A stretch of 64,000 nt of DNA from a virus: IMG/VR virus record IMGVR_UViG_3300028920_000061, positions 1 to 64,000 of that record; one strand, written 5' to 3'. The translations under genes were made by a program, and so were the position numbers. The notes under the pieces are model-generated. The model did no database searches and had not been told where the DNA came from. It worked only from the letters and a program-made list of their open reading frames with translations. Positions within the stretch are counted from its first letter, which is position 1, and each line of letters begins with the position of its first letter. Shown piece after piece: positions 24,146 to 39,096 of this stretch.

Positions 24146-24161
24146 AGTGTATTCAAACTAT

Positions 24162-24565: not shown

Positions 24566-24569
24566 ACTC

Positions 24570-24598: not shown

Positions 24599-24610
24599 GA
24601 AAGGAGTATT

Positions 24611-25030: not shown

Positions 25031-25976
25031 AAACATGGAGAAGGAATTCACCGAGCTTGCCCAGCGTTGGCATCCGGACAAGATGGGCGGCAACAGCATT
25101 GTTATGGCTCATGTGAATTCTCTTCATGCGCAGGGGAGGGAGATGGTTGCATCCGGCAATTGGAAATCATCCAATAAACGATTTTTCACCCTCTCTAATG
25201 GCAGAACTGTTCGTATAAGCTTTCTGTCTGAAAATGATTTTGAACTCGGCAAATGGTACCTCTGCGAATCGGTTTGTGTCTATGCTTTCAATACTGGCTC
25301 TGCAATAAATTTCAAACTTCCGAAATTCAGATTTCGCAATACCAGTATGACAGATGAATTTACCGCATATTTGCCAAGAATTATCGACCAGTATGAAGTA
25401 AACAACGGGAAAAAGCTCATTGTCATTAATCGTGAGAAAGACCTTGTTCTTCTACGCGATTTGTTGGCATGGTTTGGAAATGCAGTACCGCCAAAGCATG
25501 TAGCGTGGATTCTCAGCTCCCTTTACAACCTTTGTGCTTTCTTCAAATATAATGGAATTGTTCACCATTCCATTAATCTGAATACATATTTTATTTCCCC
25601 AGCAAAACATAAAGGGGTCTTGCTTGGCGGGTGGTGGTATCACAAAGGGTTCGACCGTCGAATGAAAGTAGTACCAAAATCAACATACGACGTGATGACT
25701 CTAGACACGAAAAAGTCCAAAAAAGCCACGCCCATTACCGATCTCGAATGTGTAAAACTTATAGGTCGTCAGCTTCTTGGAAGTGCCAGTGGGAGCACGC
25801 TATATTCCAATCCTGATATACCGAAGCCAATGATACAATTCCTGAGAACCATCTCGTCTGAGAATGCCTACAAGGAATATGAGGCCTGGACGAATGTTCT
25901 ACAAGAAAGTTTCGGCCCAAAAAAATTCATTGAGATGGATTGCAACGCGGACGAAATTTACAAGAAGCCATCCTAA
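24972..25976 (+). CDS. J-domain protein fused to a kinase-like domain
   Basis: 334 aa from a TTG behind CAGGAGG (6-nt spacing). The N-terminus is a DnaJ J-domain-like segment with the HPD tripeptide at 34-36 (QRWHPDKMGGN). After ~70 residues comes a protein-kinase-like fold: small beta strands, a lysine-bearing strand, VHHSINLNTYFISP resembling a catalytic loop with His/Asn (HxxxxxN), and KGVLLGGWWY in the place of the metal-binding DFG. The usual HRD aspartate is absent, so it may be a pseudokinase. It precedes an acidic protein and a vWA protein, a context reminiscent of vWA-kinase stress systems. The J-domain call is good; the kinase relation is inferred. Confidence 0.6.
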   Translation: MTDKQIIACKLPGDLFSSPENMEKEFTELAQRWHPDKMGGNSIVMAHVNSLHAQGREMVASGNWKSSNKRFFTLSNGRTVRISFLSENDFELGKWYLCESVCVYAFNTGSAINFKLPKFRFRNTSMTDEFTAYLPRIIDQYEVNNGKKLIVINREKDLVLLRDLLAWFGNAVPPKHVAWILSSLYNLCAFFKYNGIVHHSINLNTYFISPAKHKGVLLGGWWYHKGFDRRMKVVPKSTYDVMTLDTKKSKKATPITDLECVKLIGRQLLGSASGSTLYSNPDIPKPMIQFLRTISSENAYKEYEAWTNVLQESFGPKKFIEMDCNADEIYKKPS

Positions 25977-26016
25977 CAGGTGGATAATCAATAACTTATA
26001 ACAAAAGGAGTGTTTC

Positions 26017-26271
26017 ATGGGTGAAGCACCAAAGGGCTTCGAGCCCGAAACTGCCGTTGAAAAAACTGCGGACACCACCACAGAAGAAGCCCAGGCGGCC
26101 CCAGAATCCACTGGAGGGCAGCGGTCTGAAGAAGCTGCCGAAGAGGTTGCGTCGGAAGAGGCACCTGCAGAAGGCGGCTCAGAGGGCGCCGCAGAGCCTA
26201 CAGCAGAAGATCCTGACGATGAACCCTCTTCCGAGGTGCCTGAAGAGGACGAAAAAGCAGATTCCGAATAA
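26017..26271 (+). CDS. Very acidic low-complexity protein
   Basis: 84 aa behind AAAGGAG. About one third Glu/Asp with Ala, Pro and Ser (EEAAEEVASEEAPAEGG, DDEPSSEVPEED). Almost certainly disordered. Acidic small proteins in phages often mimic DNA or bind basic partners; here it sits between the J-domain/kinase-like and vWA genes and may be their partner. Function unknown. Confidence 0.6.
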   Translation: MGEAPKGFEPETAVEKTADTTTEEAQAAPESTGGQRSEEAAEEVASEEAPAEGGSEGAAEPTAEDPDDEPSSEVPEEDEKADSE

Positions 26272-26312
26272 AAATCCAAGTAACTCCTTGATTCCAAGGC
26301 GGTTATTGTATC

Positions 26313-26334
26313 GGGAGACCCGAATGGGTCTCCC
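26313..26334 (+). terminator. Hairpin before the vWA gene
   Basis: GGGAGACC and GGTCTCCC, perfect 8-bp stem with a CGAAT loop, in the gap after the acidic gene. No strong T-run, so it may be an attenuator or mRNA-stabilising hairpin. Confidence 0.5.
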
Positions 26335-26360
26335 TTCACCATTTCAGAGAGGAATTCCAC

Positions 26361-27287
26361 ATGGGAAGTGGAAGAATGACAGCCGATGACTGGGGGGCAT
26401 ACTCGACCACCCATTTCGTAGATCGTACAGTAGACAAGATCTACACCTCATCAACCATCGATTCCCGGTTCGATCCCAAGAAAATCACCATGAGAGAGTC
26501 GTGCGACTCTGATGACAATCCCGAATCAACAGCTGCTATCATCGCCCTGGATGTCACCGGTTCGATGTCTTATGTTCTGGAGGCAACTGCAAAGAACCTT
26601 GGCGTCCTGGTTCAGGAAGTCTACGACCGGAAACCCATCACCGACCCCCACATGATGTTCATGGGAATCGGAGATGCGGAGATGAGAGACGAATATCCAC
26701 TTCAGGTGACTCAGTTCGAAGCCGACATCCGGATTGCCGAACAACTCAAAAACATCTATTTCGAACGTCATGGCGGCGGCAACTCTTATGAGTCATATGC
26801 GCTGGCGTGGTATTTCGCGGCTCTGAGGACCAAAATTGACTGCTTCGAGAAGAGGGGCAAGAAAGGCACCCTGTTCACCATCGGTGATGAGGGTCCCACG
26901 CCATACCTGAAAGCAGACGACATCGAGTACACTCTCGGGGAACGTCCTCAGAAGGACTTCACCGACAAAGAGCTGCTCGAAATGGTCTCACGGCAGTACG
27001 ACGTGTTCCATCTCATCGTTGAAGAAGGCGACTTCGCCAGCCGGCACGGCGGGGAAGTGATCAAGAAGTGGACGGAGCTTCTTGGCCAGAGAGCTATCCC
27101 GATATCCGACTGTACCAAAGTTGCCGAAGTGATCGTGTCCGTTCTTCAAGCCAATGCGGGTGAAGACAAGGATAAAATCATTTCCAGTTGGGATGGCGAC
27201 ACATCAGTCGTTGTTTCAAAAGCAATCAACGGTCTCACTAAATCCGATGGGGTGGCCTCCTCATCGGATGGCGTTGTGGAACTATAG
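26361..27287 (+). CDS. von Willebrand factor A (vWA) domain protein
   Basis: 308 aa. The MIDAS metal site is D64-V-T-G-S68 (IALDVTGSMSYV), followed by a Thr/Asp-containing strand (HMMFMGIGDAEMRDE) and later GGGNSYESY and LFTIGDEG, typical of vWA folds. The last ~40 residues are Ser/Asp-rich. The start ATG has GAGAGGAA nearby. vWA proteins commonly assemble complexes; the neighbours are the J-domain/kinase-like and acidic genes. No enzymatic activity is apparent. Confidence 0.75.
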   Translation: MGSGRMTADDWGAYSTTHFVDRTVDKIYTSSTIDSRFDPKKITMRESCDSDDNPESTAAIIALDVTGSMSYVLEATAKNLGVLVQEVYDRKPITDPHMMFMGIGDAEMRDEYPLQVTQFEADIRIAEQLKNIYFERHGGGNSYESYALAWYFAALRTKIDCFEKRGKKGTLFTIGDEGPTPYLKADDIEYTLGERPQKDFTDKELLEMVSRQYDVFHLIVEEGDFASRHGGEVIKKWTELLGQRAIPISDCTKVAEVIVSVLQANAGEDKDKIISSWDGDTSVVVSKAINGLTKSDGVASSSDGVVEL

Positions 27288-27304
27288 TTTCACTTCGCCC
27301 GACT

Positions 27305-27343
27305 GCGCCCAGGTTTCGTTAGGGTTTCCTGGGCGCTTTTTTT
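27305..27343 (+). terminator. Rho-independent terminator after the vWA gene
   Basis: GCGCCCAGG and CCTGGGCGC, 9-bp stem, then seven T. Closes the acidic/vWA transcript before the thioredoxin gene. Confidence 0.85.
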
Positions 27344-27359
27344 CTGGAGGATTTGTTAT

Positions 27360-27698
27360 ATGACTTACCCACATCCAGGAGTCGATGCCTGGGAAAGCTA
27401 CAAAGAGGAAAATCCCATGGAACTGAAAGTTCTTTTCTTCTGGGCCCCATGGTGCGCCCCATGCAAACTTATGAGTCCAGGATTTGATGATGCCTCAAAA
27501 GCAAATCCGAATATAAAATTCGAAAAAATAAATGTTGATCAGGATGACGCAACTCCAAACAGATATGGGGTATATGTTATCCCGTCAATATGTTTTTGCA
27601 TCAATGGGCTTCTCTATCATACTCATATCGGTATAATGACAGAATCTTCAATAAATGATGAAATTATGAAAATGAAAAAAGAAATCGAAAGTGGATAG
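27360..27698 (+). CDS. Thioredoxin-like protein
   Basis: 112 aa behind GGAGG. Active site W31-C-A-P-C35 (APWCAPCKLMSP) and the cis-proline segment VIPSICF. Size and order fit a stand-alone thioredoxin that reduces ribonucleotide reductase or other phage or host proteins. An internal Met at residue 20 could also serve as start. It is followed by adenylosuccinate synthetase, both supporting nucleotide metabolism. Confidence 0.85.
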   Translation: MTYPHPGVDAWESYKEENPMELKVLFFWAPWCAPCKLMSPGFDDASKANPNIKFEKINVDQDDATPNRYGVYVIPSICFCINGLLYHTHIGIMTESSINDEIMKMKKEIESG

Positions 27699-27719
27699 AT
27701 TATTTGAAAGGAAGAATTT

Positions 27720-28895
27720 ATGAGAATCAAAGCAATAATTGGAAGTGGCATGGGTGATGAAGGTAAGGGTCGCATGACCGAATACTTTTCCGACAGCAAA
27801 TCAATTGTTGTACGATTCAACGGAGGGGCACAAGCTGGTCATACTGTCGTACTTTCTGACTGGGCGCGTCATGTATTTCATCATTTTGGAAGTGGGAGCC
27901 TGCATGGTGCTCAAACATATCTGAGCAAATTTTTTATTGCCAATCCGATGTTCTTCTGTCGAGAGCGTAGAGAACTTCTGGCGAATTTTCAATGTAATCC
28001 TGATGTTTATATCAGTCCGTTTTGTTTTGTTACGACACCATGGGATATGATCATTAATGATCTAACAAATCAGAAAAACCAACATGGTACCTGTGGATTT
28101 GGCATTAACGAGACTGTTGAACGATGTCAGAAGATGACATTAAATGTCAGTACGCTTCAGGCGGACTACTTTGACGACCTTCTCATGCACATCGTCAATG
28201 ACTGGGTTCCGGTAAGAATTGAAGAGCTTGGGCTTGAGCCCGACGCAACATACCGCAAATGGCTTTCAAGCGAGAAGATGATAGACAATTTCAAAGATGA
28301 TGTCAAATCATTTCTCAATTGGGTAACGATAGGAGACCCAAACTTTGACTTTGCCGAACAAGTCATTTTTGAAGGCGCTCAGGGACTCATGCTCGATCAG
28401 AATCATGAAAATTTCCCATATGTTACCAGGTCGAATACGGGAACCGGAAATGTCCGCGAACTGATTGAGGATTTTCATCTTCACGATGAACTGGAAGTGA
28501 CATACGTTACCCGGTCATATGCGACCAGGCATGGGGCCGGACCTTTACTTCATGAGGATAAGACTCTCCAATATGGCGACCCAACAAACGTTCCAAACAG
28601 GTTTCAGGGAAGTCTACGATATGGCCTTCTCGATATAAATCAAATTGTTCATGAAATCAATCAAGATATGGTAAATCTAAACGGCCTGGAGTACAATCCA
28701 AGTATTGCAGTCACCTGCCTGGACCAAAATCCCGGATATTGTATCTGGGATGGTAAGGAAGAGCGCTTGTCACACAGTGAGCTATGCAAGCACGCTCTTG
28801 CGGACAATCTCCAGTTTAGCAAGGCGTATGGGTCCATTGGCCCCAGAACAACTGATCACATGAAAGTGTGGGAAAGGAAAGGGGTGCCAGTATAA
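27720..28895 (+). CDS. purA: Adenylosuccinate synthetase
   Basis: 391 aa, slightly shorter than the usual ~430. GMGDEGKG carries D13, and NGGAQAGH carries H41, exactly the catalytic pair of E. coli PurA. EGAQGLMLD, NTGTGN and TRHGAG fit further PurA motifs. The enzyme ligates aspartate to IMP in AMP synthesis. Phage PurZ enzymes that make 2-aminoadenine are PurA relatives in which D13 is replaced, whereas here D13 is kept, so an ordinary purine role is more likely. Start behind GAAAGGAAG. The next gene starts by 1-nt overlap. Confidence 0.88.
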   Translation: MRIKAIIGSGMGDEGKGRMTEYFSDSKSIVVRFNGGAQAGHTVVLSDWARHVFHHFGSGSLHGAQTYLSKFFIANPMFFCRERRELLANFQCNPDVYISPFCFVTTPWDMIINDLTNQKNQHGTCGFGINETVERCQKMTLNVSTLQADYFDDLLMHIVNDWVPVRIEELGLEPDATYRKWLSSEKMIDNFKDDVKSFLNWVTIGDPNFDFAEQVIFEGAQGLMLDQNHENFPYVTRSNTGTGNVRELIEDFHLHDELEVTYVTRSYATRHGAGPLLHEDKTLQYGDPTNVPNRFQGSLRYGLLDINQIVHEINQDMVNLNGLEYNPSIAVTCLDQNPGYCIWDGKEERLSHSELCKHALADNLQFSKAYGSIGPRTTDHMKVWERKGVPV

Positions 28896-29248
28896 TGGCT
28901 GAAGTAGCGCTGGTCAAAATCACTTGTTGCGCCGAAGGTTACCATGTTCCATTCTGGATATCGGCAGCGCACAATTCGCATCTTCATGATACGCATGAAT
29001 GGTTCTATTGTCCGAATGGTCATCAACAGCATTACCCGCAGGAGACCGACGAAGAAAAATTCAAGCGACTCTACGAATTCGAAAAGAAAAATCGGGTTCA
29101 GGTAGAGCGTAGAGCAGAAAGAAATTACCAGAATTTTGAACAACAGATTCGATATACAGCGGCGCAGAAAGGGCTCGTTACAAAACTTCGCAAACAACTG
29201 AGGGAAAAGAATGAAAGAGATAATCTACCCAAACGGGGAAACGCTTGA
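28895..29248 (+). CDS. Hypothetical protein with Cys/His pairs and coiled-coil tail
   Basis: 117 aa, starting inside the preceding stop (TAATG). The first half has CCAEGYHVPFW and WFYCPNGHQQHY, a possible zinc site. The second half is a charged coiled coil (KFKRLYEFEKKNRVQVERRAE). No family recognised. Overlaps the next gene by 38 nt. Confidence 0.6.
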   Translation: MAEVALVKITCCAEGYHVPFWISAAHNSHLHDTHEWFYCPNGHQQHYPQETDEEKFKRLYEFEKKNRVQVERRAERNYQNFEQQIRYTAAQKGLVTKLRKQLREKNERDNLPKRGNA

Positions 29249-29474
29249 CTTTGAAACAAAAAAAGAGAAGCCAAGTCTTAAAGAACTGCAGAAAGCGGTT
29301 GGGGGGTACATTGAGTTGGTTCAGCTTCTTGATGGCAATATCATGATCATAAATGAAGAAGGGAAGCTCAACGATCTTGAGCCGAACCATGTTGCTACTG
29401 AAAAAGCGTTTCCTAAAGGTGGTGATATTATTGTCGGGAATGCTGTCGTACTTTCACCGGAGTTGATGATCTAA
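29211..29474 (+). CDS. Hypothetical small protein (DUF-type, beta-rich)
   Basis: 87 aa. Contains LKELQKAVGGYIELVQLLDGNIMIINEEGKLN and GDIIVGNAVVLSPELM, resembling the small phage/plasmid DUF3846-type domain: a two-strand unit with NEEGKL and GNAV motifs. The start is inside the previous gene behind AGGGAAAAG. Function unknown. Confidence 0.65.
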   Translation: MKEIIYPNGETLDFETKKEKPSLKELQKAVGGYIELVQLLDGNIMIINEEGKLNDLEPNHVATEKAFPKGGDIIVGNAVVLSPELMI

Positions 29475-29698
29475 TGCCAGAAATTATTATAACCATAGCA
29501 GCCAAAGAGCTGGATCATGAGCAGCTTGATGAGGTTCGATATACAATTGAAAAGGTGGCTTCTTTGTTAGCAAATTCAAAGCCACCAAGCTTAAATGAAG
29601 TTATGGCGAATGCGTTAACAGGCACATTACCTGAGATGAGAACTCCAACCATGGTAATGAAAGCCACTTATGATTACATGCGGGGGAATCGTGGGTGA
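29474..29698 (+). CDS. Hypothetical small protein
   Basis: 74 aa, starting in a 1-nt overlap with the previous stop (TAATG). One beta strand then helices (AAKELDHEQLDEVRYTIEKV). No family recognised. Part of a tight run of tiny genes. Confidence 0.55.
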   Translation: MPEIIITIAAKELDHEQLDEVRYTIEKVASLLANSKPPSLNEVMANALTGTLPEMRTPTMVMKATYDYMRGNRG

Positions 29699-29702
29699 AT
29701 AC

Positions 29703-29846
29703 ATGATACCAGCAGATGAGTTTATTGACGGGTTCGAAGACTTCCTTCGTAACTTTGAAGGTAATGTGTCAGCGGAATGTGTAGCCGAAGCGTGGAACAG
29801 GCTGGCTGAAAAATACGAATGGTCTGATAAGTTATTTGCCAAATGA
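29703..29846 (+). CDS. Hypothetical 47-aa protein
   Basis: Short acidic, aromatic protein (FIDGFEDFLRNFEGN, AEAWNRLAEKYEW). Starts 4 nt after the previous stop and overlaps the next start by ATGA, so it is likely part of the run. Weak ribosome site (GGGTGA). Confidence 0.5.
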   Translation: MIPADEFIDGFEDFLRNFEGNVSAECVAEAWNRLAEKYEWSDKLFAK

Positions 29847-30049
29847 AAAGAAAAAGAATTGATATACCCAATGACGCGGTTCGGTCACTTGACTGGTTAT
29901 GTGAAAAATGTGGCGAATCGCGTCCTGGGTGTATTTTAAGATTAATAGCAATGGGAGTTCGTGAAACAGAACTTTTTCTTCAAAGAAAGAAGTATCAAGA
30001 AGTTATCAATCGGTGGGGAGAACCTACTCGAAAGATGGTCAAAAAATGA
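29843..30049 (+). CDS. Hypothetical small protein, possible DNA-binding
   Basis: 68 aa, overlapping the previous stop (ATGA). Basic ends (KRKRIDIP; KMVKK) around LDWLCEKCGESRPGCILRL; the spaced cysteines could bind zinc. Last gene before the cassette array. No family recognised. Confidence 0.55.
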   Translation: MKRKRIDIPNDAVRSLDWLCEKCGESRPGCILRLIAMGVRETELFLQRKKYQEVINRWGEPTRKMVKK

Positions 30050-30113
30050 AAGTTTGTAATACAAGGAGTTATGCAAAACTCTAGTCATGCTTTTTATTGA
30101 TCGGAGGTTGCTT

Positions 30114-30344
30114 GTGTTTCAAATAATGTTAGCATCATTCATAACAGGGTTTGTGTGTTTCTTGCTTGGTTGCTGGTATCAGCAACGCAACAGTAACACT
30201 AAGGTAGGCACTCCTTCCGCATCGCACAACAGGCCAATTATGCAAGTTTGCCCTGTGTGCGGTAGTAGCGTTTCTTTACAACCATCTTTGGGTGCAAATA
30301 TATACGGCTGTTGCAAGTGCGAGTGGTACGGCAAACCAGCATAA
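30114..30344 (+). CDS. Cassette gene 1: membrane-anchored zinc-ribbon protein
   Basis: 76 aa from the GTG behind CGGAGG; an ATG at 30087 has no ribosome site. Transmembrane segment (MLASFITGFVCFLLGCWY) then a short zinc ribbon CPVCGSS...CCKCEW. The 3' coding half overlaps the R'' and L'' parts of the first attC-like site. Function unknown. Confidence 0.6.
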   Translation: MFQIMLASFITGFVCFLLGCWYQQRNSNTKVGTPSASHNRPIMQVCPVCGSSVSLQPSLGANIYGCCKCEWYGKPA

Positions 30345-30363
30345 GTTGGCCGAACCGTTGTCG
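30224..30363 (+). repeat. attC-like site 1
   Basis: CAAC (30227-30230), A, GGCCAA (30232-30237) on the left; TTGGCC (30346-30351), GAACC, GTTG (30357-30360) on the right. The inner stem is a perfect 6 bp and the outer arm ACAAC/GTTGT is 5 bp. Confidence 0.7.
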
Positions 30364-30400
30364 GCAATATCTGTTGAACCATAATGTAAAGGAGTGCCTA

Positions 30401-30718
30401 ATGGCAAATTTTCGTAATCAACTTACCGACCTTATCAACTGTCACTCGCTAGAGAACGGCAGTGATACTCCAGACTACATCTTGGCAGCATACTTGGATG
30501 GTTGCCGCAAAGAATTTGACGCTGCCGTTAACGCCCGTGCTCGGCACTCCTCAGAACAAGAGGTGTCAACAGAGAAAGCCGACAACAGCGACTATGCGGC
30601 GGCGCTTGAAGTGTGGGGCGAGTTTTTGAACACGTTCGTGATAACAGAAAGCGATAATAAGGTTTTTCCAGAGTGGTGTCGTAAGCGCCTCAATTCGGAG
30701 AAACCGAACTGCGCATAA
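30401..30718 (+). CDS. Cassette gene 2: small helical protein
   Basis: 105 aa behind AAAGGAG. Helical with ILAAYLDGCRKEFDAAVN. The C-terminal part (YAAALEVWGEFLN...W..KRLN) is clearly related to cassette gene 8 (YATALEVLNEYEE...W.K.RLN). The DNS of this gene and NNR of gene 8 are encoded by the CAAC part of the attC-like site. Function unknown. Confidence 0.7.
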   Translation: MANFRNQLTDLINCHSLENGSDTPDYILAAYLDGCRKEFDAAVNARARHSSEQEVSTEKADNSDYAAALEVWGEFLNTFVITESDNKVFPEWCRKRLNSEKPNCA

Positions 30719-30732
30719 TCGCAAACGTTGTA
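30581..30732 (+). repeat. attC-like site 2
   Basis: ACAAC (30582-30586), A, GCGA then TATGCG; on the right CGCATA, A, TCGC (30719-30722), AAAC, GTTGT (30727-30731). Ten inner base pairs with one C-A mismatch. Confidence 0.75.
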
Positions 30733-30767
30733 CAAAATTTGTGCGCTTTTGAATTGGAGGTTGCGCC

Positions 30768-30971
30768 GTGAAATATTGTAAGGTTGAATTTATGTGCGAT
30801 TGGTATCCGAACGATACGAGTAAATGCCCTCACCGTGTTTTAGATAAGTACCGTGATTGCATTTACGAAAATATTATTGCCGAAAACTATGCTATTTGTG
30901 GCAGCGAAGAGGCGCAACGGGAAGCTATGGAAGCGCACAAACTTCGTACAACAGGCCAAGTGTCGCAATAG
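30768..30971 (+). CDS. Cassette gene 3: small cysteine-rich protein
   Basis: 67 aa from a GTG behind GGAGG. Six Cys in 45 residues (YCKVEFMCDWYP, KCPHRV, DCIYEN, ICGSEE), a likely zinc or disulfide fold, then a helical tail. No family recognised. Confidence 0.65.
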   Translation: MKYCKVEFMCDWYPNDTSKCPHRVLDKYRDCIYENIIAENYAICGSEEAQREAMEAHKLRTTGQVSQ

Positions 30972-31007
30972 TCAAAGCACTACTGCGCACGTTGGCCGGA
31001 ACGTTGC
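30948..31007 (+). repeat. attC-like site 3
   Basis: ACAAC (30948-30952), A, GGCCAA(30954-30959), GTG, CGCA; on the right TGCG, CAC, G, TTGGCC (30992-30997), GGAAC, GTTG (31003-31006). The compact 60-nt form and an inner stem that nearly matches site 1 make this one of the clearest examples. The gene's stop codon lies in the apical part. Confidence 0.8.
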
Positions 31008-31042
31008 AGGCCATAGGGGCTGAACCATATTGGAGGTTGGTA

Positions 31043-31324
31043 GTGGTGCAAGTAAAGTGGTTGCAGATATACAAGTGTCGTGACTGTTGGCACCTTGAGC
31101 CGAGTTACGGAACTGGTGATAGGCGTTGCGGATTAACTGGGCGCAAGTGTGAATATGTCCCCGGCGTTGGGTGGTATGAGGATGTGCCGGAATGGTGTCC
31201 ACTACCAACAGCAGAATCGGAGTCAGCCCCAACAGGCCAACAACAGTCCGCAGGAACGCCATTGTCGCAGGATTATGGAATAAATAAACGGTTGGAGCGC
31301 GAACAACAGCGTCCGTGCGGCTAA
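31043..31324 (+). CDS. Cassette gene 4: small cysteine-containing protein
   Basis: 93 aa from GTG (31043 or 31046) behind GGAGG. Contains KCRDCWHLEP, RCGLTGRKC and WCPLP, a possible zinc-binding fold of the ribbon type. The C-terminal third is Gln/Ser-rich and is encoded within the attC-like site. No family recognised. Confidence 0.6.
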   Translation: MVQVKWLQIYKCRDCWHLEPSYGTGDRRCGLTGRKCEYVPGVGWYEDVPEWCPLPTAESESAPTGQQQSAGTPLSQDYGINKRLEREQQRPCG

Positions 31325-31331
31325 TCGTTGT
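31240..31331 (+). repeat. attC-like site 4
   Basis: ACAAC (31240-31244), A, then CCGCA, GG, ACG on the left; CGT, CC, G, TGCGG (31316-31320), CTAATC, GTTGT (31327-31331) on the right. Confidence 0.7.
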
Positions 31332-31370
31332 AGGTCATAGCTGGTGAACCATATTGTAAAGGCGGTCAAC

Positions 31371-31661
31371 ATGGATTTTGAAAATAGAAAGAAGTTGCGC
31401 GAGAAGTACCGAGAAGAAACTGGATTTATGTGGAAGGTTCCACACCCAAAGTTTCTGCTTGCATCAGAGGGGTATGTCATGTGGCTTGAAGACCGCCTTG
31501 AAAAGGCGGAGTCACCAGCAACGAACCCACAACAAACGCAGCCTGCCATTGCTCAACTCTGGGAACGGTATTCTGGTATTATGCCTGACGATACTCTGGA
31601 GAAACGTGCTTGTATTGCTAATTTTGTCAGATATGTTGAGCAACAACAGGCGGGTGCGTAA
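31371..31661 (+). CDS. Cassette gene 5: small helical protein
   Basis: 96 aa behind AAAGG. Charged helix (RKKLREKYREE) with WKVPHPKFLLASEGYV. Gln-rich C-terminus (EQQQAGA). No family recognised. Confidence 0.65.
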   Translation: MDFENRKKLREKYREETGFMWKVPHPKFLLASEGYVMWLEDRLEKAESPATNPQQTQPAIAQLWERYSGIMPDDTLEKRACIANFVRYVEQQQAGA

Positions 31662-31669
31662 TCAGTTGT
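31529..31669 (+). repeat. attC-like site 5
   Basis: ACAAC (31529-31533), AAA, CGCA, G, CCTGCC on the left; GGCGGG, TGCG (31655-31658), TAATCA, GTTGT (31665-31669) on the right. The CCTGCC/GGCGGG pairing includes one T-G wobble. Confidence 0.7.
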
Positions 31670-31718
31670 GCGCAATCAACTGGCGAGTCTACATTGTAGG
31701 CCGCCGAAGGAGGTAAAG

Positions 31719-31922
31719 ATGAAAGGATTTATCGGTTTGATTATTGTGGTTCAAATTGTAGTGTACATCGGGATGGTGTCACTGGTCGGATGGGGCCTCT
31801 GGACTGGCGCAAGATATGTGTCAAAGCACGGCGTAAAATCAATTGTAGAGGAAATGTGGAACGGGTCGGCGGCAGAAAAAGAGGGTTCGCCAGTTGACAA
31901 CACACAACAGCCGCAGCACTAA
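31719..31922 (+). CDS. Cassette gene 6: small single-pass membrane protein
   Basis: 67 aa behind GAAGGAGG. Transmembrane segment (FIGLIIVVQIVVYIGMVSLVG) with a short polar tail (EEMWNGSAAEKEGSP). No family recognised. The stop codon falls in the apical loop of the attC-like site. Confidence 0.65.
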   Translation: MKGFIGLIIVVQIVVYIGMVSLVGWGLWTGARYVSKHGVKSIVEEMWNGSAAEKEGSPVDNTQQPQH

Positions 31923-31964
31923 ATACTATCGTACTTCGTGCGAGTGCGGCGATACGTTGTGTGT
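31900..31964 (+). repeat. attC-like site 6
   Basis: ACACACAAC (31900-31908), A, GCCGCA, GCAC; on the right GTGC, GAG, TGCGGC (31945-31950), GATAC, GTTGTGTGT (31956-31964). Nine outer and ten inner base pairs with unequal spacers (1 vs 5 nt). The best-formed site. Confidence 0.85.
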
Positions 31965-31999
31965 TCGCTTCGCAAATTTTAACCTTTGGAGTATTGTAA

Positions 32000-32272
32000 A
32001 TGGAAATACATTGTTGCGGTTGCGTTGCTGAAGATATTTGTGAGGCTGTTCAGGGCGATAATAGATGTCTTGATTTCCATAAGGCTTTGGAAGCGGTTAA
32101 AACGTCACACAACAGCGCTAGTACGCAATATTTTCCCGATGAAAAGGAGATGAAACATGCCGCGAGTCAGTGGATTGATTACCTAAGCACTATAGATTCA
32201 ACATACTCTGACTTAGAGCAAACTTTTATACAGGGAGTACGATGGGGTATCGGCCAACTGCCGGGCAAGTAG
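32000..32272 (+). CDS. Cassette gene 7: small protein with N-terminal cysteines
   Basis: 90 aa preceded by TTTGGAG. N-terminus MEIHCCGCVAEDICEAVQ holds clustered Cys; the rest is helical (KHAASQWIDYLST). No family recognised. Confidence 0.65.
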   Translation: MEIHCCGCVAEDICEAVQGDNRCLDFHKALEAVKTSHNSASTQYFPDEKEMKHAASQWIDYLSTIDSTYSDLEQTFIQGVRWGIGQLPGK

Positions 32273-32288
32273 TGCGAGACGTTTTGTG
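32106..32288 (+). repeat. attC-like site 7
   Basis: CACACAAC (32106-32113), A, GCGCT; on the right AGTGC (32271-32275), GAGAC, GTTTTGTG (32281-32288). Shorter inner stem (5 bp, one G-T wobble) and the longest span (183 nt), so less certain. Confidence 0.5.
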
Positions 32289-32399
32289 AATATGCCGATG
32301 TAAAATGCAAATGGAGGTGTGATTAAACATGAAAGCTATAGTATTCGGATCAGAAGGTTGTGTGAAAGTCCAGTCAGCTTTTTAACAATTGGAGGCGGC

Positions 32400-32639
32400 A
32401 TGCCACATTTCAGCGAAGAAGAAACGATTTCGATAATCAAACGTCTGATTGAGTTAGCAGAAATCAAGGAAGGGCGCCTCAAATCTAAGGAGTTGGCTAC
32501 TTCACCCAACAACCGCTATGCGACGGCGCTTGAGGTGTTGAATGAGTATGAAGAGGATGATTCATATTCTCCCAACGAACCGCCGTTTGAGATATGGCTC
32601 AAGTTGCGCCTAAATGCCGATGGCACTTCGCATAGCTAA
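32400..32639 (+). CDS. Cassette gene 8: small protein related to cassette gene 2
   Basis: 79 aa behind TTGGAGG. Helical N-terminus (EEETISIIKRLIELAE). C-terminal half (NNRYATALEVLNEYEEDD...W.K.RLN) parallels cassette gene 2. Function unknown. Confidence 0.65.
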   Translation: MPHFSEEETISIIKRLIELAEIKEGRLKSKELATSPNNRYATALEVLNEYEEDDSYSPNEPPFEIWLKLRLNADGTSHS

Positions 32640-32649
32640 ATCGTTATAG
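32504..32649 (+). repeat. attC-like site 8
   Basis: ACCCAAC (32504-32510), which fits the canonical R'' RYYYAAC, then AACC, GCTATGCG (32515-32522); on the right CGCATAGC (32629-32636), TAAATC, GTTATAG (32643-32649). The inner stem is a perfect 8 bp. Confidence 0.85.
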
Positions 32650-32701
32650 TCAATAAATTTGCCTTCTGATAGTATAGTCAGCTGGTAAGAAAGGAATTAT
32701 T

Positions 32702-32854
32702 ATGCCATTGTATACAGTATCAGCAGATTGTCCAATCACGGAGTACGAAGCTGATGATGAAATGGGTGCTATCGAACAGTATTCTGAGAATTATCGTGTT
32801 AATTACAAGTTTTGTTCAGCAACAAAGTGTGATGAACCCGCTGAAGAAGAATAA
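32702..32854 (+). CDS. Cassette gene 9: 50-aa acidic peptide
   Basis: Small acidic protein (MPLYTVSADCPITEYEADDE...KCDEPAEEE) behind AAAGGAA. Very short, so support comes from the ribosome site and cassette position. No family recognised. Confidence 0.55.
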   Translation: MPLYTVSADCPITEYEADDEMGAIEQYSENYRVNYKFCSATKCDEPAEEE

Positions 32855-32872
32855 GGTGGGCAAATTTACAGC

Positions 32873-32941
32873 AACCAACAACCGTATGGTGTTCGTTTCA
32901 CGAATGCGGGTATGCACTTCACCATACTTTCCCGTTATAGG
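32873..32941 (+). repeat. attC-like site 9
   Basis: CAAC (32876-32879), AACC, GTATGGTG (32884-32891); on the right CACCATAC (32920-32927), TTTCCC, GTTATAG (32934-32940). A perfect 8-bp inner stem with the same R' as site 8. Confidence 0.85.
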
Positions 32942-32959
32942 CTGTTTGAGGAGGCTTTT

Positions 32960-33226
32960 ATGGATATAGCAAATTTGACCCGATACACTATTGATTATGT
33001 TCCAGACTCTTGTGATGGTGATTATGTTCAGCATAATGTAAGCAAGGATGGCGAGTATGTCAAATTTGAGGAAGCTATGGAAGCCTCCTCAAACAGCCTA
33101 CAACAGCTAAAGGCTGAAATTTTAGCACTACGCAAAGATGGTGTAGTTGCAGACGATATGTATTGGATTGGTTGGAACATGGCCCTTGAACGTACTGCTG
33201 GTATGCTAAAACAATCAGCCGTTTAG
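32960..33226 (+). CDS. Cassette gene 10: small acidic protein
   Basis: 88 aa behind GAGGAGG. DIANLTRYTIDYVPDSCDGD then a helical part (LQQLKAEILALRKDG) and a Trp-rich motif (MYWIGWNMALERTAG). No family recognised. Confidence 0.65.
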   Translation: MDIANLTRYTIDYVPDSCDGDYVQHNVSKDGEYVKFEEAMEASSNSLQQLKAEILALRKDGVVADDMYWIGWNMALERTAGMLKQSAV

Positions 33227-33236
33227 CAAACATTGT
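33100..33236 (+). repeat. attC-like site 10
   Basis: ACAAC (33100-33104), A, GCTAAA, GGCTG on the left; CAGCC, G, TTTAGC (33222-33227), AAAC, ATTGT (33232-33236) on the right. The inner stem is 11 bp with one bulge. The outer right arm reads ATTGT, not GTTGT. Confidence 0.7.
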
Positions 33237-33272
33237 CGGTAATCGGTTGTCAAATTATAGAAGGGCGGCAAA

Positions 33273-33584
33273 ATGAAGTTGAAAATGCACTCGTTTGATT
33301 TTGGTGAAAACACTCTGACATTTAGTATTCCCGCTGCTACTATGGAGTCCCATGCTTGGGGTAATGTCCCTGATGGTGTAGATGTAGACCTGTCCAAGGT
33401 GACTAATGACGTTGCCCTTGGGACTAATGGAACAACCGACTCCGCTGGCGCTACCGACAACATCGCAAGGGACGAAATATTGCGCTGTATCACGTACATA
33501 GATAATTATTTATCGGCTGGCAATATTGAATCGGCTCGCAAATGGTGCAACGAAGTACGCGCAATACTATCGCCCGTTGCGTAA
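33273..33584 (+). CDS. Cassette gene 11: hypothetical protein
   Basis: 103 aa preceded by AAGGGCGG. Beta-rich N-terminus (MHSFDFGENTLTFSIPAATM), then a helical C-terminus (DEILRCITYIDNYLS). No family recognised. Confidence 0.65.
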   Translation: MKLKMHSFDFGENTLTFSIPAATMESHAWGNVPDGVDVDLSKVTNDVALGTNGTTDSAGATDNIARDEILRCITYIDNYLSAGNIESARKWCNEVRAILSPVA

Positions 33585-33593
33585 CCGTTGCAC
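33457..33593 (+). repeat. attC-like site 11
   Basis: ACAAC (33457-33461), AT, CGCAA, GGG on the left; CCC, G, TTGCG (33577-33581), TAACC, GTTG (33587-33590) on the right. Good inner stem; last site of the array. Confidence 0.7.
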
Positions 33594-33621
33594 GCCAGTT
33601 TTGATTTTGGAGATTTGTATT

Positions 33622-33804
33622 ATGTCAATATTGCCTAAACGTTGCAAATGTGGCAGATGGTCGTGGAGTATTCGGCGTAGAAGATTAAACACAGCCTACG
33701 TTGACGAGGAAAGAAATTATATGTACTCGTGTCGCGAGTGCTATGAAGAGGCTTACGAATACTACGCCGAACGATGGGCGGATTATTATGCTAATTGCAT
33801 GTAG
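33622..33804 (+). CDS. Cassette gene 12: small basic-aromatic protein
   Basis: 60 aa behind TTGGAG. CKCGRWSWSIRRRR and CRECYEEAYEYY suggest a zinc-ribbon with an aromatic tail. No attC-like site is recognisable after it; TTGCATG...CATGCAA forms a different short hairpin there. Confidence 0.55.
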   Translation: MSILPKRCKCGRWSWSIRRRRLNTAYVDEERNYMYSCRECYEEAYEYYAERWADYYANCM

Positions 33805-33845
33805 GAAGTGCAAAACCAGCATGCAACAACAGCCGGAGGTAAAAA

Positions 33846-34088
33846 ATGCAAGAACAAAGAGAAAAAGCCCATTCGATATTACGCAAGGCATTCGATGAGG
33901 CTGGAATAGCAGATGGGTTTTATTGTGGTGTTTTAATGGATGGAACTGATGTATCCGCGTACAGTGTCGGACGTGAGAATAAGGCAGAGTATTCTAACGT
34001 AGAGCGGTATCAACGCCTTCTCGGTGTTGTTGAATCGTGCAAATACTCATTATTGGTCAAAGCTCACGAAAAGCAGGAAAAATCATGA
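33846..34088 (+). CDS. Cassette gene 13 (last small gene): hypothetical
   Basis: 80 aa behind CCGGAGG. Helical with a glycine/aspartate centre (FYCGVLMDGTDVSAYSVG). No attC-like site follows, so it may be a fixed gene or a cassette with a lost site. No family recognised. Confidence 0.55.
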   Translation: MQEQREKAHSILRKAFDEAGIADGFYCGVLMDGTDVSAYSVGRENKAEYSNVERYQRLLGVVESCKYSLLVKAHEKQEKS

Positions 34089-34197
34089 AAGGTTTTGTCA
34101 CCCCACAACAATGATGTTATTTTTTTTCACTTTGTGGAATAGTAATAATATACAGATCTTTTGAAATATCATATATTCTACAACAAAGGAGGAATTC

Positions 34198-34959
34198 ATG
34201 GCAAAGGTCCATGAAATTGTTGCTGTCGAGAAAGACGTGAAGGGCACATTCAATAAGATGCTGGGTGAAACTCGCATGACATTCCTGAAGGGTGAGCATT
34301 TCGATGAGCACCTGAAAGAATACCAGCCGCTCAATGCTGACGATCGTGAACAGCTCGATGCCGAACACAAGCCCATGGCTGACACTGTCCCCAGCAAGTT
34401 GTCATATTTCATGGGGCATATGAAGAGAATGTTCGACTTGGTGATACAGAAAGAAGTATCCAATCTGGACGCCAAAGCTGATGTCACTGTTCAAACAGAC
34501 AGTGGTGATGAAGTTGTTTTGTACGAACAGGCTCCGGTTGCGGCTATTGTTCAGCTTACCAATCTGATGGAAAGCGTTCGGATTCAGGTTCTTTTGAATA
34601 TCCCCACGCTTGATCCGGCAAGATCCTGGGCATCCGACGGAAATCGTCAGGACGTGTTTGTCACCCCCGAAGTCAGACGCGCCAGAACCAAGAAGGTGCA
34701 GGTCCCTATCGAATTGTCGCCGGCTACAGACAGACACCCGGCGCAGGTTCAGCTTGTCACGGAAGATGTGACTACCGGCCACTGGGTGCAGAAGTACTGG
34801 TCCGGTAAGATATCTTCGGCTGACAAGTCAATGATTCTGAAACGAACCGACGCCCTCATAGCAGGCCTCAAAAGAGCCAAGTCGAGGGCTAATGAGAGTG
34901 AGGCGAAGAAGGTTGCCATAGGCGATCGCTGCGCCAAATGGATTTTGACAGGAGAATAA
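34198..34959 (+). CDS. Hypothetical protein, possibly DUF7873-like
   Basis: 253 aa behind AAAGGAGG. Alpha/beta with conserved-looking blocks (GETRMTFLKGEHFDEHLKEYQPL, DRHPAQVQLVTEDVTTGHW). A Lys/Ala-rich C-terminal region. I do not recognise the family with certainty. It is well separated from the array and from the permuted RNA unit. Function unknown. Confidence 0.7.
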   Translation: MAKVHEIVAVEKDVKGTFNKMLGETRMTFLKGEHFDEHLKEYQPLNADDREQLDAEHKPMADTVPSKLSYFMGHMKRMFDLVIQKEVSNLDAKADVTVQTDSGDEVVLYEQAPVAAIVQLTNLMESVRIQVLLNIPTLDPARSWASDGNRQDVFVTPEVRRARTKKVQVPIELSPATDRHPAQVQLVTEDVTTGHWVQKYWSGKISSADKSMILKRTDALIAGLKRAKSRANESEAKKVAIGDRCAKWILTGE

Positions 34960-35345
34960 TCAATTGGACGTATACTGAATTCGGGCTGGGGGACCAAATG
35001 AACCCGGCCCCGTCATATTCAGATTCATGTTGATGGGAGTAGTTTTTACGAAACCGCTCATGTTATTGCGTCCTATGTTCAGGTTTATAACCTCAAAAAC
35101 TTTTGATGCCGACACTAACACCTGTAACGAGAGTTCAAATCTCTCCCCGCCATCCAGAAATCAAAAATCATTTTTGGTTTCTCGATGGCGGGTAGTCCAG
35201 TGGTAAGACACAGGCATGATGTTTATGCTCGGTACGTCGATAGTCAAGAGGTGAAAAAAAATTCGTAATGAATACCAACACTTGAACTGTTGATTTATTC
35301 AATAAGTGGCGGGGTGGCAGGATACGTCTGCCCCGCCTTTTTTTA
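34960..35345 (+). ncRNA. Candidate circularly permuted tRNA / tRNA-like RNA unit
   Basis: No ORF of note occupies this 386-nt stretch. The 3' part of a tRNA comes first: CCTGT (35121-35125), T stem GAGAG (35129-35133), loop TTCAAAT, CTCTC, CCCGCCA (35146-35152), discriminator T, CCA (35154-35156). A 29-nt spacer follows, then the 5' part: TGGCGGG (35186-35192), TA, D-arm-like GTCCAGTGGTAAGAC (35195-35209), ACAGG (35210-35214). TGGCGGG is the exact complement of CCCGCCA and ACAGG of CCTGT, although the 5' part is downstream. A terminator ends the unit at 35337. This is a circularly permuted tRNA gene or two tRNA halves. The pairing is seen directly; processing and anticodon are not established. 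Confidence 0.55.
35308..35343 (+). terminator. Rho-independent terminator of the permuted RNA unit
   Basis: GGCGGGG and CCCCGCC stem with inner CAG/CTG pairs, then a run of T. Confidence 0.85.
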
Positions 35346-35365
35346 TTTTGGTTACAACATTTTTT

Positions 35366-35406
35366 TAGCCGTTAGACTAACGGAAAATCTGGTATAACTA
35401 TAATAG
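35366..35406 (+). promoter_or_regulatory. Phage promoter, copy 2 of a conserved motif
   Basis: TAGCCGTTAG, 12 nt, TCTGGTATAACTATAATAG. Followed by hairpin GCAAGAG/CTCTTGT (35407-35426) and GGAGG, all nearly identical to copy 3. Confidence 0.75.
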
Positions 35407-35447
35407 GCAAGAGAATTCACTCTTGTCTATTTCCGTCGGAGGAAATA

Positions 35448-35756
35448 ATGGTAGCCCTTATCACAAAAACAATAAAATACGAATGCCACATTTATGAAGA
35501 GTCTGATGACGCGGCTGAAGAATTAGTTAAGATGGTTGATGAATGTCAACCTCATATTATTAAAATCCCCAAAGATATTGAAAAGTTTGCTAATGATTAT
35601 AATATTTTTATTATATACAAACTTCCCGGGGAAGGAAATCCAACTATAAAAGAATTTCTGTCAAAACCTGATGAATTTCGGCGATTTGAATGGCATGATA
35701 CCATTCATGAGATGGGGCTTCGTAATCGCTTAAAAAATGGCGTTGGGGAATCGTAA
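35448..35756 (+). CDS. Hypothetical small protein behind a dedicated promoter
   Basis: 102 aa. The 5' UTR carries the conserved promoter, hairpin and CGGAGGA ribosome site shared with the gene at 35915. The protein is acidic and mixed alpha/beta (ITKTIKYECHIYEESDD, IIKIPKDIEKFA). No family recognised. The strong individual promoter suggests high early expression. Confidence 0.7.
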   Translation: MVALITKTIKYECHIYEESDDAAEELVKMVDECQPHIIKIPKDIEKFANDYNIFIIYKLPGEGNPTIKEFLSKPDEFRRFEWHDTIHEMGLRNRLKNGVGES

Positions 35757-35788
35757 ATCCCCCGGTCCGAAAGGCCCGTTAACCGGCT

Positions 35789-35830
35789 GCCCTCCACAGA
35801 TACTGACATATCTGTGAAGGGCTTTTTTTT
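35789..35830 (+). terminator. Rho-independent terminator
   Basis: GCCCT...CACAGATA pairs with TATCTGTG...AGGGC, followed by eight T; separates the two promoter-led small genes. Confidence 0.85.
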
Positions 35831-35870
35831 ACCCGTTAGAATAGAAGAAAATATGGTATAACTATAATAG
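35831..35870 (+). promoter_or_regulatory. Phage promoter, copy 3 of a conserved motif
   Basis: ACCCGTTAG, 12 nt, TATGGTATAACTATAATAG, then hairpin GACAAGAG/CTCTTGTC (35870-35891). Same layout and spacing as copies 1 and 2. Confidence 0.75.
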
Positions 35871-35914
35871 ACAAGAGAATTCGCTCTTGTCTATTTCCGT
35901 CGGAGGAATTCATT

Positions 35915-36079
35915 ATGTCACAATATTTTTATAACCAATTCTATTTTAATGCGCAATTTCTTCCACATCTTCTAATAGATGATTATGTAGACGGTGGTAG
36001 CAGACGAAAGAGGAAAACCGACCCAGTCGATATGGCTGACAAATTCATCGCGAGAATGGAGATTGACTGGAGGGAATGA
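35915..36079 (+). CDS. Hypothetical 54-aa protein behind copy-3 promoter
   Basis: Short aromatic, acidic protein (MSQYFYNQFYFNAQFLPHLL, then RRKRKTDPVDMADKF) with the same leader as the 35448 gene (CCGTCGGAGG). Support comes from promoter, hairpin and ribosome site. Convergent with the structural block. Confidence 0.55.
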   Translation: MSQYFYNQFYFNAQFLPHLLIDDYVDGGSRRKRKTDPVDMADKFIARMEIDWRE

Positions 36080-36123
36080 TTTCTCTCCTTTTTATCCATC
36101 AGGTTGGCAAACCCTTTGCCCAT

Positions 36124-36155
36124 AAAAAACCCCTCCCGAGGGAAAACGGGAGGGG
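36124..36155 (-). terminator. Terminator of the structural gene block
   Basis: On the minus strand CCCCTCCCG and CGGGAGGGG form a 9-bp hairpin followed by six T (A-run on the plus strand at 36124-36129). It ends the long leftward structural transcript. Confidence 0.85.
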
Positions 36156-36210
36156 CCGGAGGTCGCACCTCAAGAAGAATAGAAAAGGTGCGTGGCCAGC
36201 AACAGGCTGG

Positions 36211-38283
36211 TTAAATCTGCGAACTCACTTTCGACCCAGGCGGTCGCTGTTCAGGAAGAGCTGCAATATCAACTCCAGCTTCCGCCGGACCTGGCGGCTC
36301 TTCTCCATACGTGTCCCCCTGAGTTGTTGAAGGTATCTGCCCAGGTGTGTATTTCTGGACAGTCTCCATATCTGGTTTTGTATCTGCAAGAATAACATTC
36401 ATCTCCTTCAGGTTCGAATAGACCTCCTGATAGAGAGATGGCATGGAATTCTTCATGGCAAGCATTCTAATCTTGAATTCTTCAGGATTAATATCAGCAA
36501 GTCTTGCAAATCGCTGTGTAATAATCATTATCAGGTTCGGAACTGAGATTTTGCCCGGATCCATACCTCTCTGCTGACTAAGTGCGGCAGTTTCCTGCGC
36601 AACCCCTTCAGCGTTCATCATTCTCTGCTCTTCAATCTGCTGCTCACGAGTAGCCTGATACTCTCGCTCGTTTTGTTCCATACGGCTACGATTGGCAAGC
36701 TCAGCATCAGCAGCATACATCGCATTTACAACTGTGGCACCACCAGCAGCCTCAGCCTCACCTTCAGCGGCTTTGACCTTCATTTCAATCATTCTCTTGA
36801 GTTCCTGCTCTTTGAGATTGTATTCTTTCTCAGGATCAAGACCAAGCTCTTTTTGCATGGATGTACGGGAAATAAGCGATGTCGCCGGGTCATCCCCTGC
36901 GTTTCTCATCATCATTTCCTTCTTCTGAAGATCGTCAGCCATTTTGAAGTCTGACATTTTGATATCAATTGTCGGTATACTGAAATAGGCTGAAGTCTTA
37001 TTCTTCACCCAGTCTATAAACTCGATCATATCATTACGATGATTGAGAAACGTGTTCTCAACAACACGCAGGGATACGTTACTTCCAGACCATGATGCTC
37101 CACCACGAATAATTTCAGGTATCATCCCAACACCGGTAATGATATCATCTTCAACGAATTTCAACTCTTGAGAAATCAAAAGTAGTTTTGCATCGCCGCT
37201 GAAATTTTGCATTCCAAGAGGTAACGGTACGATTGACACGTAGTTCGGGTCTGCTCTCCACTTTCGTATCTCATCCTCGACTTTGGTTCTCCAGCTACCA
37301 AGGTTCATTATGGCATGAGGACTGACATCGCCTTGAGACATTGGAAACAGAATTCGAAGAGGCACGATATGATCAAACGCAATCATCTCGTTGCCCTTCT
37401 TAAGAACCCTGACGTGGAATATGTCTTTCAAAACAGGCATAACCGCGGGTATTCCCCAACCTCTCTGACCGGGTATGAGATATTGGGGCCCTGGGCGCTT
37501 GAGGTGATACACGTTGTCTGAAAGAAGCTTCAGCTGCTTACGCTTCTGAACCGCTTCAATAACTTCAAGCCTGAGAGTGCTGACAATATCCATATCCCCC
37601 TGACGAACCGCTGTAGCAATAGATGGCGGTATAGTATAGTAATAGAAATGGTCGTCAGAAATGGGATTGTATTTAATGTCAATAAATGTGAGATCCCAGG
37701 AAATGATAGACATCTTGGACATCTCTCGACTGTTCACATCACGGGCTTCCATTACCCCGTTGTATCCACAGTCTTTTTTGATGCACTTCGCGACAAACTT
37801 GAAATTCTTGAAAGAAGCGTTGAGACCTTCCGCCGTATGCTCTTCATTGCATTTTGGGCATTTCAGCATGCGTTTGAACGGATAGTGAATTGACATTATC
37901 GAATTGCCATAAGCGTAATAATCCATTCCACACTGTTTGAGAACGCGAGTCATTTTCATATGATCTTCAAACAGTTTTTTCCACTTATCGACAGTCTTGT
38001 CATTTTCCAGATTAGCCGGCTTTTCCTCATCACCATATATGAGGTCGGTGATGGGATATTCAGACATCTTATTGACGCATTGTGATATCAGACCATCGCC
38101 AAGAACAAAAGAAGCAATAAATGATATGAGACTCTTGATGGTCTTAGGAAGGAACGTGGATGTCATATCAAGAAACGGGCTATCGTACTTGATAGAACCA
38201 CGATGAAACGTAACCGGCGTAGTGGTAGAAGTACTTGTACTGGTGGCCGCGGTAACCAGCCCCTGTCCTGACAAATCAGCCAT
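36211..38283 (-). CDS. Portal-like protein
   Basis: 690 aa. Ser/Thr-rich N-terminus, then helical and beta segments and GIPAVMPVLKDIFHVR, DPNYVSIVPLPLGMQNFSGD and IIRGGASWSGSNVSLRVVENTF, which look like the clip and stem regions of large-phage portals. A zinc-like CPKCNEEH...CIKKDCGYN insertion lies near residue 143-175, unusual for a portal. The C-terminal third is a Met/Gln/Glu-rich coiled coil. It is the last gene of the leftward structural transcript. Portal is the best guess from length and context; no definitive motif is known. Confidence 0.6.
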   Translation of the reverse strand: MADLSGQGLVTAATSTSTSTTTPVTFHRGSIKYDSPFLDMTSTFLPKTIKSLISFIASFVLGDGLISQCVNKMSEYPITDLIYGDEEKPANLENDKTVDKWKKLFEDHMKMTRVLKQCGMDYYAYGNSIMSIHYPFKRMLKCPKCNEEHTAEGLNASFKNFKFVAKCIKKDCGYNGVMEARDVNSREMSKMSIISWDLTFIDIKYNPISDDHFYYYTIPPSIATAVRQGDMDIVSTLRLEVIEAVQKRKQLKLLSDNVYHLKRPGPQYLIPGQRGWGIPAVMPVLKDIFHVRVLKKGNEMIAFDHIVPLRILFPMSQGDVSPHAIMNLGSWRTKVEDEIRKWRADPNYVSIVPLPLGMQNFSGDAKLLLISQELKFVEDDIITGVGMIPEIIRGGASWSGSNVSLRVVENTFLNHRNDMIEFIDWVKNKTSAYFSIPTIDIKMSDFKMADDLQKKEMMMRNAGDDPATSLISRTSMQKELGLDPEKEYNLKEQELKRMIEMKVKAAEGEAEAAGGATVVNAMYAADAELANRSRMEQNEREYQATREQQIEEQRMMNAEGVAQETAALSQQRGMDPGKISVPNLIMIITQRFARLADINPEEFKIRMLAMKNSMPSLYQEVYSNLKEMNVILADTKPDMETVQKYTPGQIPSTTQGDTYGEEPPGPAEAGVDIAALPEQRPPGSKVSSQI

Positions 38284-38295
38284 TATGTCTACTTT

Positions 38296-39042: not shown

Positions 39043-39096
39043 TTAATGATCCTTTTCACCTGCCACGCTTTTTTCCGGTGCTTTTGAATAAATGAT

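Follow-up and report, generated by a model that had tools for sequence, protein, structure and literature searches.

A probable integron-type gene-cassette array without a local recombinase in a bacterial virus

Introduction

Can small genes and palindromes that alternate in a bacterial virus be regarded as integron-type cassettes, and if so, were they taken from a host integron or captured by a system of the phages themselves? The question is raised by virus record IMGVR_UViG_3300028920_000061 (81,022 bp), of which the first 64 kb were analysed and are called the window in the following. At 30.1–33.8 kb of the window twelve small genes on the same strand are separated by eleven imperfect palindromes of the type CAAC...GTTG (30.2–33.6 kb), as a first-pass annotation had recorded.

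Very probably, this region represents an array of integron-type cassettes that has no local recombinase and is in function a cluster of attC sites lacking integron integrase (CALIN), and its site family circulates among phages. The integron-like nature of the array is supported by the complementarity that closes each cassette into a circle, by the behavior of a Vibrio array as positive control, and by gain, loss and exchange of cassettes among near-identical relatives. As for the source of the cassettes, between a host integron and phage-specific capture we favor the latter and give less weight to the former, because one hairpin type occurs in 17 viral contigs and at no credible bacterial locus, and because tyrosine recombinases other than IntI adjoin arrays in a phage genome labelled G020 and in phage Leef_1. 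Phage CALINs have already been published (Qi et al. 2023, PMC9892861); measured by the definition used there, at least two attC-like sites and no intI on a phage record, the present array has eleven sites. The bipartite arms, the phage-restricted hairpin family and the non-IntI recombinase look new.

Results

Site geometry and circle closure

The sites can be read along one plan, namely CAAC, a short spacer, L''...L', a longer spacer and GTTR, which corresponds to the attC-type imperfect inverted repeat R''-spacer-L''...L'-spacer-R'. The spacers are short and unequal as annotated (1–4 nt left, 4–6 nt right). The site lengths were given as 60–183 nt and measure 55–175 nt, still an attC-like span. 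The annotated outer arms CAAC/GTTG hold for R' in seven of the eleven sites, the rest having GTTT, GTTA (twice) and ATTG. None of the eleven R' boxes fits GTTRRRY at position 5, which is always T or C, and several Vibrio R' boxes (e.g. GTTATGC) also deviate. The inner stem is indeed specific to the individual cassette: L'' and L' of the same site reach a pairing of 176 compared to 108 ± 10 with the arms shuffled among sites, and none out of 200,000 permutations scored as high.

The strongest feature had been overlooked by the annotation. An integron cassette moves as a circle, and its first bases (R') must consequently pair with its last bases before the hairpin (R''). In the window the start of each cassette pairs with its own 3' end with a summed score of 264, compared to 118 ± 18 for shuffled partners (0 out of 200,000), and the score is just 114 if the neighbor in the linear array is taken as the partner. 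As start n pairs with end n, and L'' with L' within the site, the complete bulged hairpin requires the cassette to be circular. The same test on 14 cassettes of a Vibrio chromosomal-integron array yielded 258 compared to 155 ± 13.

Exact complementary runs in this control are mostly 8–11 nt long, in agreement with the 9–11 nt of canonical R''/R' arms (PMC2727003). The arms in the window are longer and bipartite, with 9 bp, a two-base mismatch and then 10 bp. Pairing of the outer arm amounts to 9–10 out of 10 positions in cassettes 2, 3, 6, 9 and 10 and to 7 out of 10 in cassette 12, and is lower in the rest. In eight of the eleven sites the gene reads on through the hairpin for 26–52 codons and stops 3–13 nt before R', so that the hairpin appears to form a single unit with its gene.

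Distribution of the site family

Cassettes from approximately 12 viral contigs follow a common plan: GTTRNNNNN, AAT at the start as opposed to TGT at the complemented end, and about 10 more paired bases, after which pairing ceases. A strict bipartite-arm detector built for this plan replaced a low-threshold chain finder, which was dropped because of many chance chains. The strict detector gave no match in 223 kb of shuffled sequence and found matches in most array contigs. No bipartite 21-nt arms were detected in the bacterial integrons used for comparison, one Vibrio array and one class 1 region.

The 21-nt motif of site 10 was found in 18 stretches of 17 contigs of the IMG/VR database. Among 84,980 prokaryote species genomes it occurs in one place, on the other strand of a SPOR-domain-like gene, which is a chance match; this absence from bacterial genomes refers to one motif of one hairpin type. 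Most of the 17 contigs hold arrays, some of them long, and their flanks have no clear homology to the window phage. Two contig pairs are near-identical; otherwise these contigs share mostly just the hairpins of ~140–150 bp with ~72% identity. A homologous cassette occurs in the sister phage G001 and in contig L060. Compared to phages by blastn the whole 6-kb array had no match, no viral match was obtained with a 22-nt pattern derived from sites 2 and 8, and a second hairpin pattern retrieved already known contigs only. The match in L072 (Nautiliaceae) was rejected as chance.

Pfam and PHROG searches assigned almost no function to the cassette genes of the window. Methyltransferases occur as cassette cargo in other contigs: C5-type in L056 (6374–7063, just below the Pfam cut-off), MT-A70 in L063 (8331–8972, minus strand) and N6_N4 in L055 (2028–2741, minus strand).

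Cassette differences between near-identical phages

The same arms as in the window family occur in the arrays of two lytic Polaribacter phages, P12002L and P12002S. Over 5,044 and 7,750 bp the two genomes share 99.6% identity, yet their cassette blocks differ. At ~37,266–39,212 of P12002L a block is replaced relative to P12002S, with GTT cores at both sides, and a ~1.08-kb block of P12002S is missing from P12002L, with the junction a few bases ahead of GTT. The IMG/VR contigs L089 and L090 are 99.1–99.3% identical on both sides, recombinase gene included, and differ in the cassette (255 vs 438 bp) in the slot adjoining this gene. A swap of this kind, next to the recombinase gene and with GTTAG on both sides, would be expected of insertion at an attI site.

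The cassette genes of P12002L, P12002S and Leef_1 (L165, L166, L167) oppose the polarity of their sites, with AAT at the opposite end, unlike those of the window.

Sister phage G001, whose portal protein is 60% identical to that of the window phage, has an array of its own with different genes; relatives with the same genes in the same order, named in the annotation as evidence to the contrary, were thus not what we found.

Recombinases and attI-like sites

In G020 the gene for a 268-aa tyrosine recombinase ends ~7 bp before the first R' of the array, and in Leef_1 the distance from the end of the last, weaker cassette to the start of the annotated integrase is 55 bp. Upstream of the recombinase, in array polarity, lie attI-like motifs in Leef_1 (TATAGGGGC followed by GTTAGC), Freya_10 (TATAGGGGT followed by GTTAGC) and Ingeline_1 (TATGTGGGT followed by GTTAGC), each with AAT at the expected place behind it; contig L086 has a similar motif. 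Freya_10 and Ingeline_1 are weaker cases, because one strong cassette and none, respectively, pass the strict test. Contig L092 was rejected as a further example, since its XerD-like gene lies beside an unrelated inverted repeat.

The I2 region, about 46 residues in the Vibrio integrase, is missing from all four proteins (G020, Leef_1, Freya_10 and Ingeline_1), and all four score below the NCBIfam integron-integrase cut-off. The G020 and Leef_1 enzymes score best with the XerA-type model. In a phylogenetic tree the four recombinases fall outside the supported IntI clade, with Leef_1, Freya_10 and Ingeline_1 together (98/96) and the position of G020 not settled. The G020 enzyme resembles XerA and VchIntIA in its predicted structure (mean predicted local distance difference test score 91.9). 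A search of viral contigs for its close homologues returned only itself, and no recombinase of the G020/Leef_1 kind was found on the examined parts of the relatives of the window phage. In the study that isolated them (PMC8776804), Leef_1, Freya and Ingeline are called potentially temperate on account of their integrase, so that integration of the phage might be a further role of the array-adjacent enzyme, or its role in place of cassette recombination.

Genomic surroundings of the array

The array lies in a variable island between two syntenic genes (window 22577–36211, 13.6 kb), together with a transfer-messenger RNA (tmRNA) and a PurA-like gene. The same interval comprises ~0.6 kb in L004 (G001) and L008, and 6.1 kb without an array in L006. 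The individual features are listed in Table 1. The portal protein of the window phage is ~30% identical to the portals of Vibrio phage D181 and Salmonella phage Arash, and as these have genomes of 180–187 kb, the 81,022-bp record may well be a fragment.

Further observations concern the surroundings. The PurA-like gene, an adenylosuccinate synthetase-like phage gene (PF00709, window 27720–28895) that is PurA- or PurZ-like, precedes the array by 2 kb; neither its protein nor the DUF7873 protein gave a match in single-protein scans. The phage tmRNA (24162–24565), the sole match of an Rfam search, is complete and has an unusually long predicted tag peptide. ARAGORN predicts a tRNA with anticodon CTA (6775–6866, labelled Pyl, 92 nt), possibly an amber suppressor. 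Near the right end of the record (78810–79050; L001 14810–15050) a long inverted repeat with a pairing score of 48 over 26 nt encloses a 240-bp AT-rich stretch.

Table 1. Cassettes and sites of the array (window coordinates)
Feature	Position	Strand	Remarks
Cassette 1 gene	30087..30344	+	85 aa in the ORF list; start uncertain, with GTG near 30117 as an alternative
Cassette 1 protein	30087..30344	+	transmembrane and CxxC zinc-ribbon-like tail, tail read through site 1
Site 1	30227..30360	+	R'' CAAC - A - L'' GGCCAA...L' TTGGCC - GAACC - R' GTTG
Cassette 2 body	30357..30586	+	R' (GTTGTCGGCAAT) to R'' (CCGACAAC); arms 9/9 and 9/10
Cassette 2 gene	30401..30718	+	105 aa; first half similar to phrog_18819 (unknown function); stop codon inside L' arm
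Site 2	30583..30730	+	
Cassette 3 body	30727..30952	+	arms 8/9 and 10/10
Cassette 3 gene	30768..30971	+	67 aa
Site 3	30949..31006	+	
Cassette 4 body	31003..31241	+	
Cassette 4 gene	31043..31324	+	93 aa, cysteine-rich
Site 4	31238..31330	+	from sequence
Cassette 5 body	31327..31533	+	inner arm 8/9
Cassette 5 gene	31371..31661	+	96 aa
Site 5	31530..31668	+	
Cassette 6 body	31665..31908	+	arms 7/9 and 10/10
Cassette 6 gene	31719..31922	+	67 aa, membrane protein, DUF7248-like below cut-off
Site 6	31905..31959	+	
Cassette 7 body	31956..32113	+	inner arm 8/9
Cassette 7 gene	32000..32272	+	90 aa
Site 7	32110..32284	+	
Cassette 8 body	32281..32510	+	inner arm 7/9
Cassette 8 gene	32400..32639	+	79 aa
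Site 8	32507..32646	+	spacers 4/6 nt; encoded tail of same kind as site 2
Cassette 9 body	32643..32879	+	outer arm 10/10, inner 4/9
Cassette 9 gene	32702..32854	+	50 aa
Site 9	32876..32937	+	
Cassette 10 body	32934..33104	+	arms 8/9 and 10/10
Cassette 10 gene	32960..33226	+	88 aa; hairpin encodes C-terminal tail QQLKAEI...
Site 10	33101..33235	+	CAACAGCTAAAGGCTGAAATT...TCAGCCGTTTAGC; hairpin type of the 17 viral contigs
Cassette 11 body	33232..33461	+	inner arm 8/9
Cassette 11 gene	33273..33584	+	103 aa
Site 11	33458..33590	+	
Cassette 12 body	33587..33827	+	R'' at 33824-33827
Cassette 12 gene	33622..33804	+	60 aa; similar to phrog_28125 (unknown function)

Discussion

Comparison with known systems

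With mobile and chromosomal integrons, represented by the Vibrio control, the phage arrays share single-gene cassettes in head-to-tail order, R''-L''-L'-R' imperfect palindromes whose GTT core marks the junction, R''/R' pairing specific to the individual cassette, and exchange of cassettes beside a recombinase gene. They differ in the 21-nt bipartite R arms as opposed to 9–11 nt (PMC2727003), in the extra base being mostly on L', in the tail of the gene being encoded within the hairpin, and in a recombinase that lacks the I2 insertion and falls outside the IntI clade. The phage CALINs of Qi et al. (PMC9892861) are likewise phage cassette arrays without intI and with methyltransferase cargo, and P12002L from that study belongs to the same arm family as the window array. 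In that study the sites were found by bacterial attC models and integron integrases are given for the complete integrons; arm architecture, array-adjacent non-IntI recombinases and cassette differences between P12002L and P12002S are not described in the portions consulted. With XerA, XerC and XerD the phage enzymes share the XerA-type score (G020, Leef_1) and fold (G020), but they adjoin cassette arrays and attI-like sites and not a chromosomal dif. A dif core pattern had no match in the window with up to three mismatches.

Proposed mechanism

Each unit comprises GTTR..., a single gene and, at its 3' end, a hairpin with a loop that in most cases codes for the C-terminal tail of that gene. In a freed circle the two ends would meet and one of the strands could fold in the cell into a long bulged hairpin with, in this order, the outer 10-bp arm, the 2-nt mismatch, the 9-bp R arm, an asymmetric spacer, the L stem with one extra base, and the loop. 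Some phages encode, beside an attI-like site, an I2-lacking tyrosine recombinase from the XerA/IntI superfamily that may act on this folded site, and recombination at the GTT core with attI or another site would insert, remove or swap whole cassettes. The outer arm might stabilize the circular form and thereby favor insertion over loss. For the window phage the enzyme could be encoded on the missing part of the genome, or be supplied by the host or a co-infecting phage. That all this amounts to a separate, phage-owned way of gene capture, in which a XerA-type tyrosine recombinase has become a cassette integrase that bypasses IntI, with its own attI and bipartite folded sites common to unrelated phages, is put forward tentatively, as a reading we hold at somewhat less than an even chance.

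Alternative explanations

The array could be an ordinary CALIN, a piece of a host chromosomal integron picked up by the phage whose cassettes are moved by the host IntI. Phages with pieces of host integrons have been published, IntI1 recombines phage attC sites including P12002L_attC2 (PMC9892861), and the window record has no recombinase of its own. We regard this as improbable in view of a hairpin type found in viral contigs and nowhere credible in the 84,980 species genomes searched, of bipartite arms not detected in the examined Vibrio and class 1 arrays, and of the non-IntI recombinases beside phage arrays. Small transposon-like units that end in inverted repeats (GTTG...CAAC) and are mobilized by a transposase, with merely incidental palindromes between them, would account for unit ends that are complementary over up to ~26 nt. 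Such a reading is very unlikely given units in head-to-tail order with one hairpin each, an L''/L' stem that pairs across the gap between units so that the hairpin is continuous only in the circle, and swaps at GTT cores.

Stable folds at some sites might also suggest non-recombining RNA hairpins, i.e. terminators or attenuators between small genes. It is scarcely credible, however, that such elements would mostly have a coding loop and a stop codon close to R', complementarity between start and end that spans the whole gene, and whole units gained and lost among relatives; terminator-like tails are few (6 compared to 3.8 expected). A mirror-image arrangement, in which the hairpin belongs to the downstream gene, would fit the bulge on the L' side and the missing hairpin after the twelfth R'', but a gene usually extends through the hairpin of its own number and ends shortly before R', and this arrangement was set aside as less likely.

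Several observations weigh against an integron-type array as preferred here. The full outer arm is kept in only about half of the window cassettes, part of the array therefore possibly being decayed; the arms of cassettes 5, 7, 8 and 11 match in the first box only, those of cassette 4 require a gap, and a hairpin after the last R'' (33827) is missing. In alignments judged by eye, the single-base bulge is in most cases on the L' side, opposite to canonical attC sites with their extrahelical bases on L'' (PMC2727003). The third P12002 junction falls a few bases before the GTT core, and the P12002L_attC2 result of Qi et al. is indirect for the P12002L sites compared here. Neither a tyrosine recombinase, including a canonical intI with I2 insertion, nor an attI was found on the 81-kb record, and the same holds for tyrosine recombinases and attI on most array contigs, those of 213 and 219 kb included; among 16 searched viral contigs with the site 10 motif, 14 have no recombinase.

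Significance

The I2 helix is held to be the innovation that enables IntI to use single-stranded DNA (PMC7790495). The array-adjacent recombinases lack this helix, and the question of integron origin thereby becomes directly testable. Cultured phages could serve as laboratory systems, both the lytic P12002L and P12002S and the potentially temperate, recombinase-carrying Leef_1, Freya and Ingeline. If phages run a cassette system of their own, it would provide a dedicated site-specific route for gene exchange between unrelated phages, and the methyltransferases in some cassettes could then be traded as counter-defence parts.

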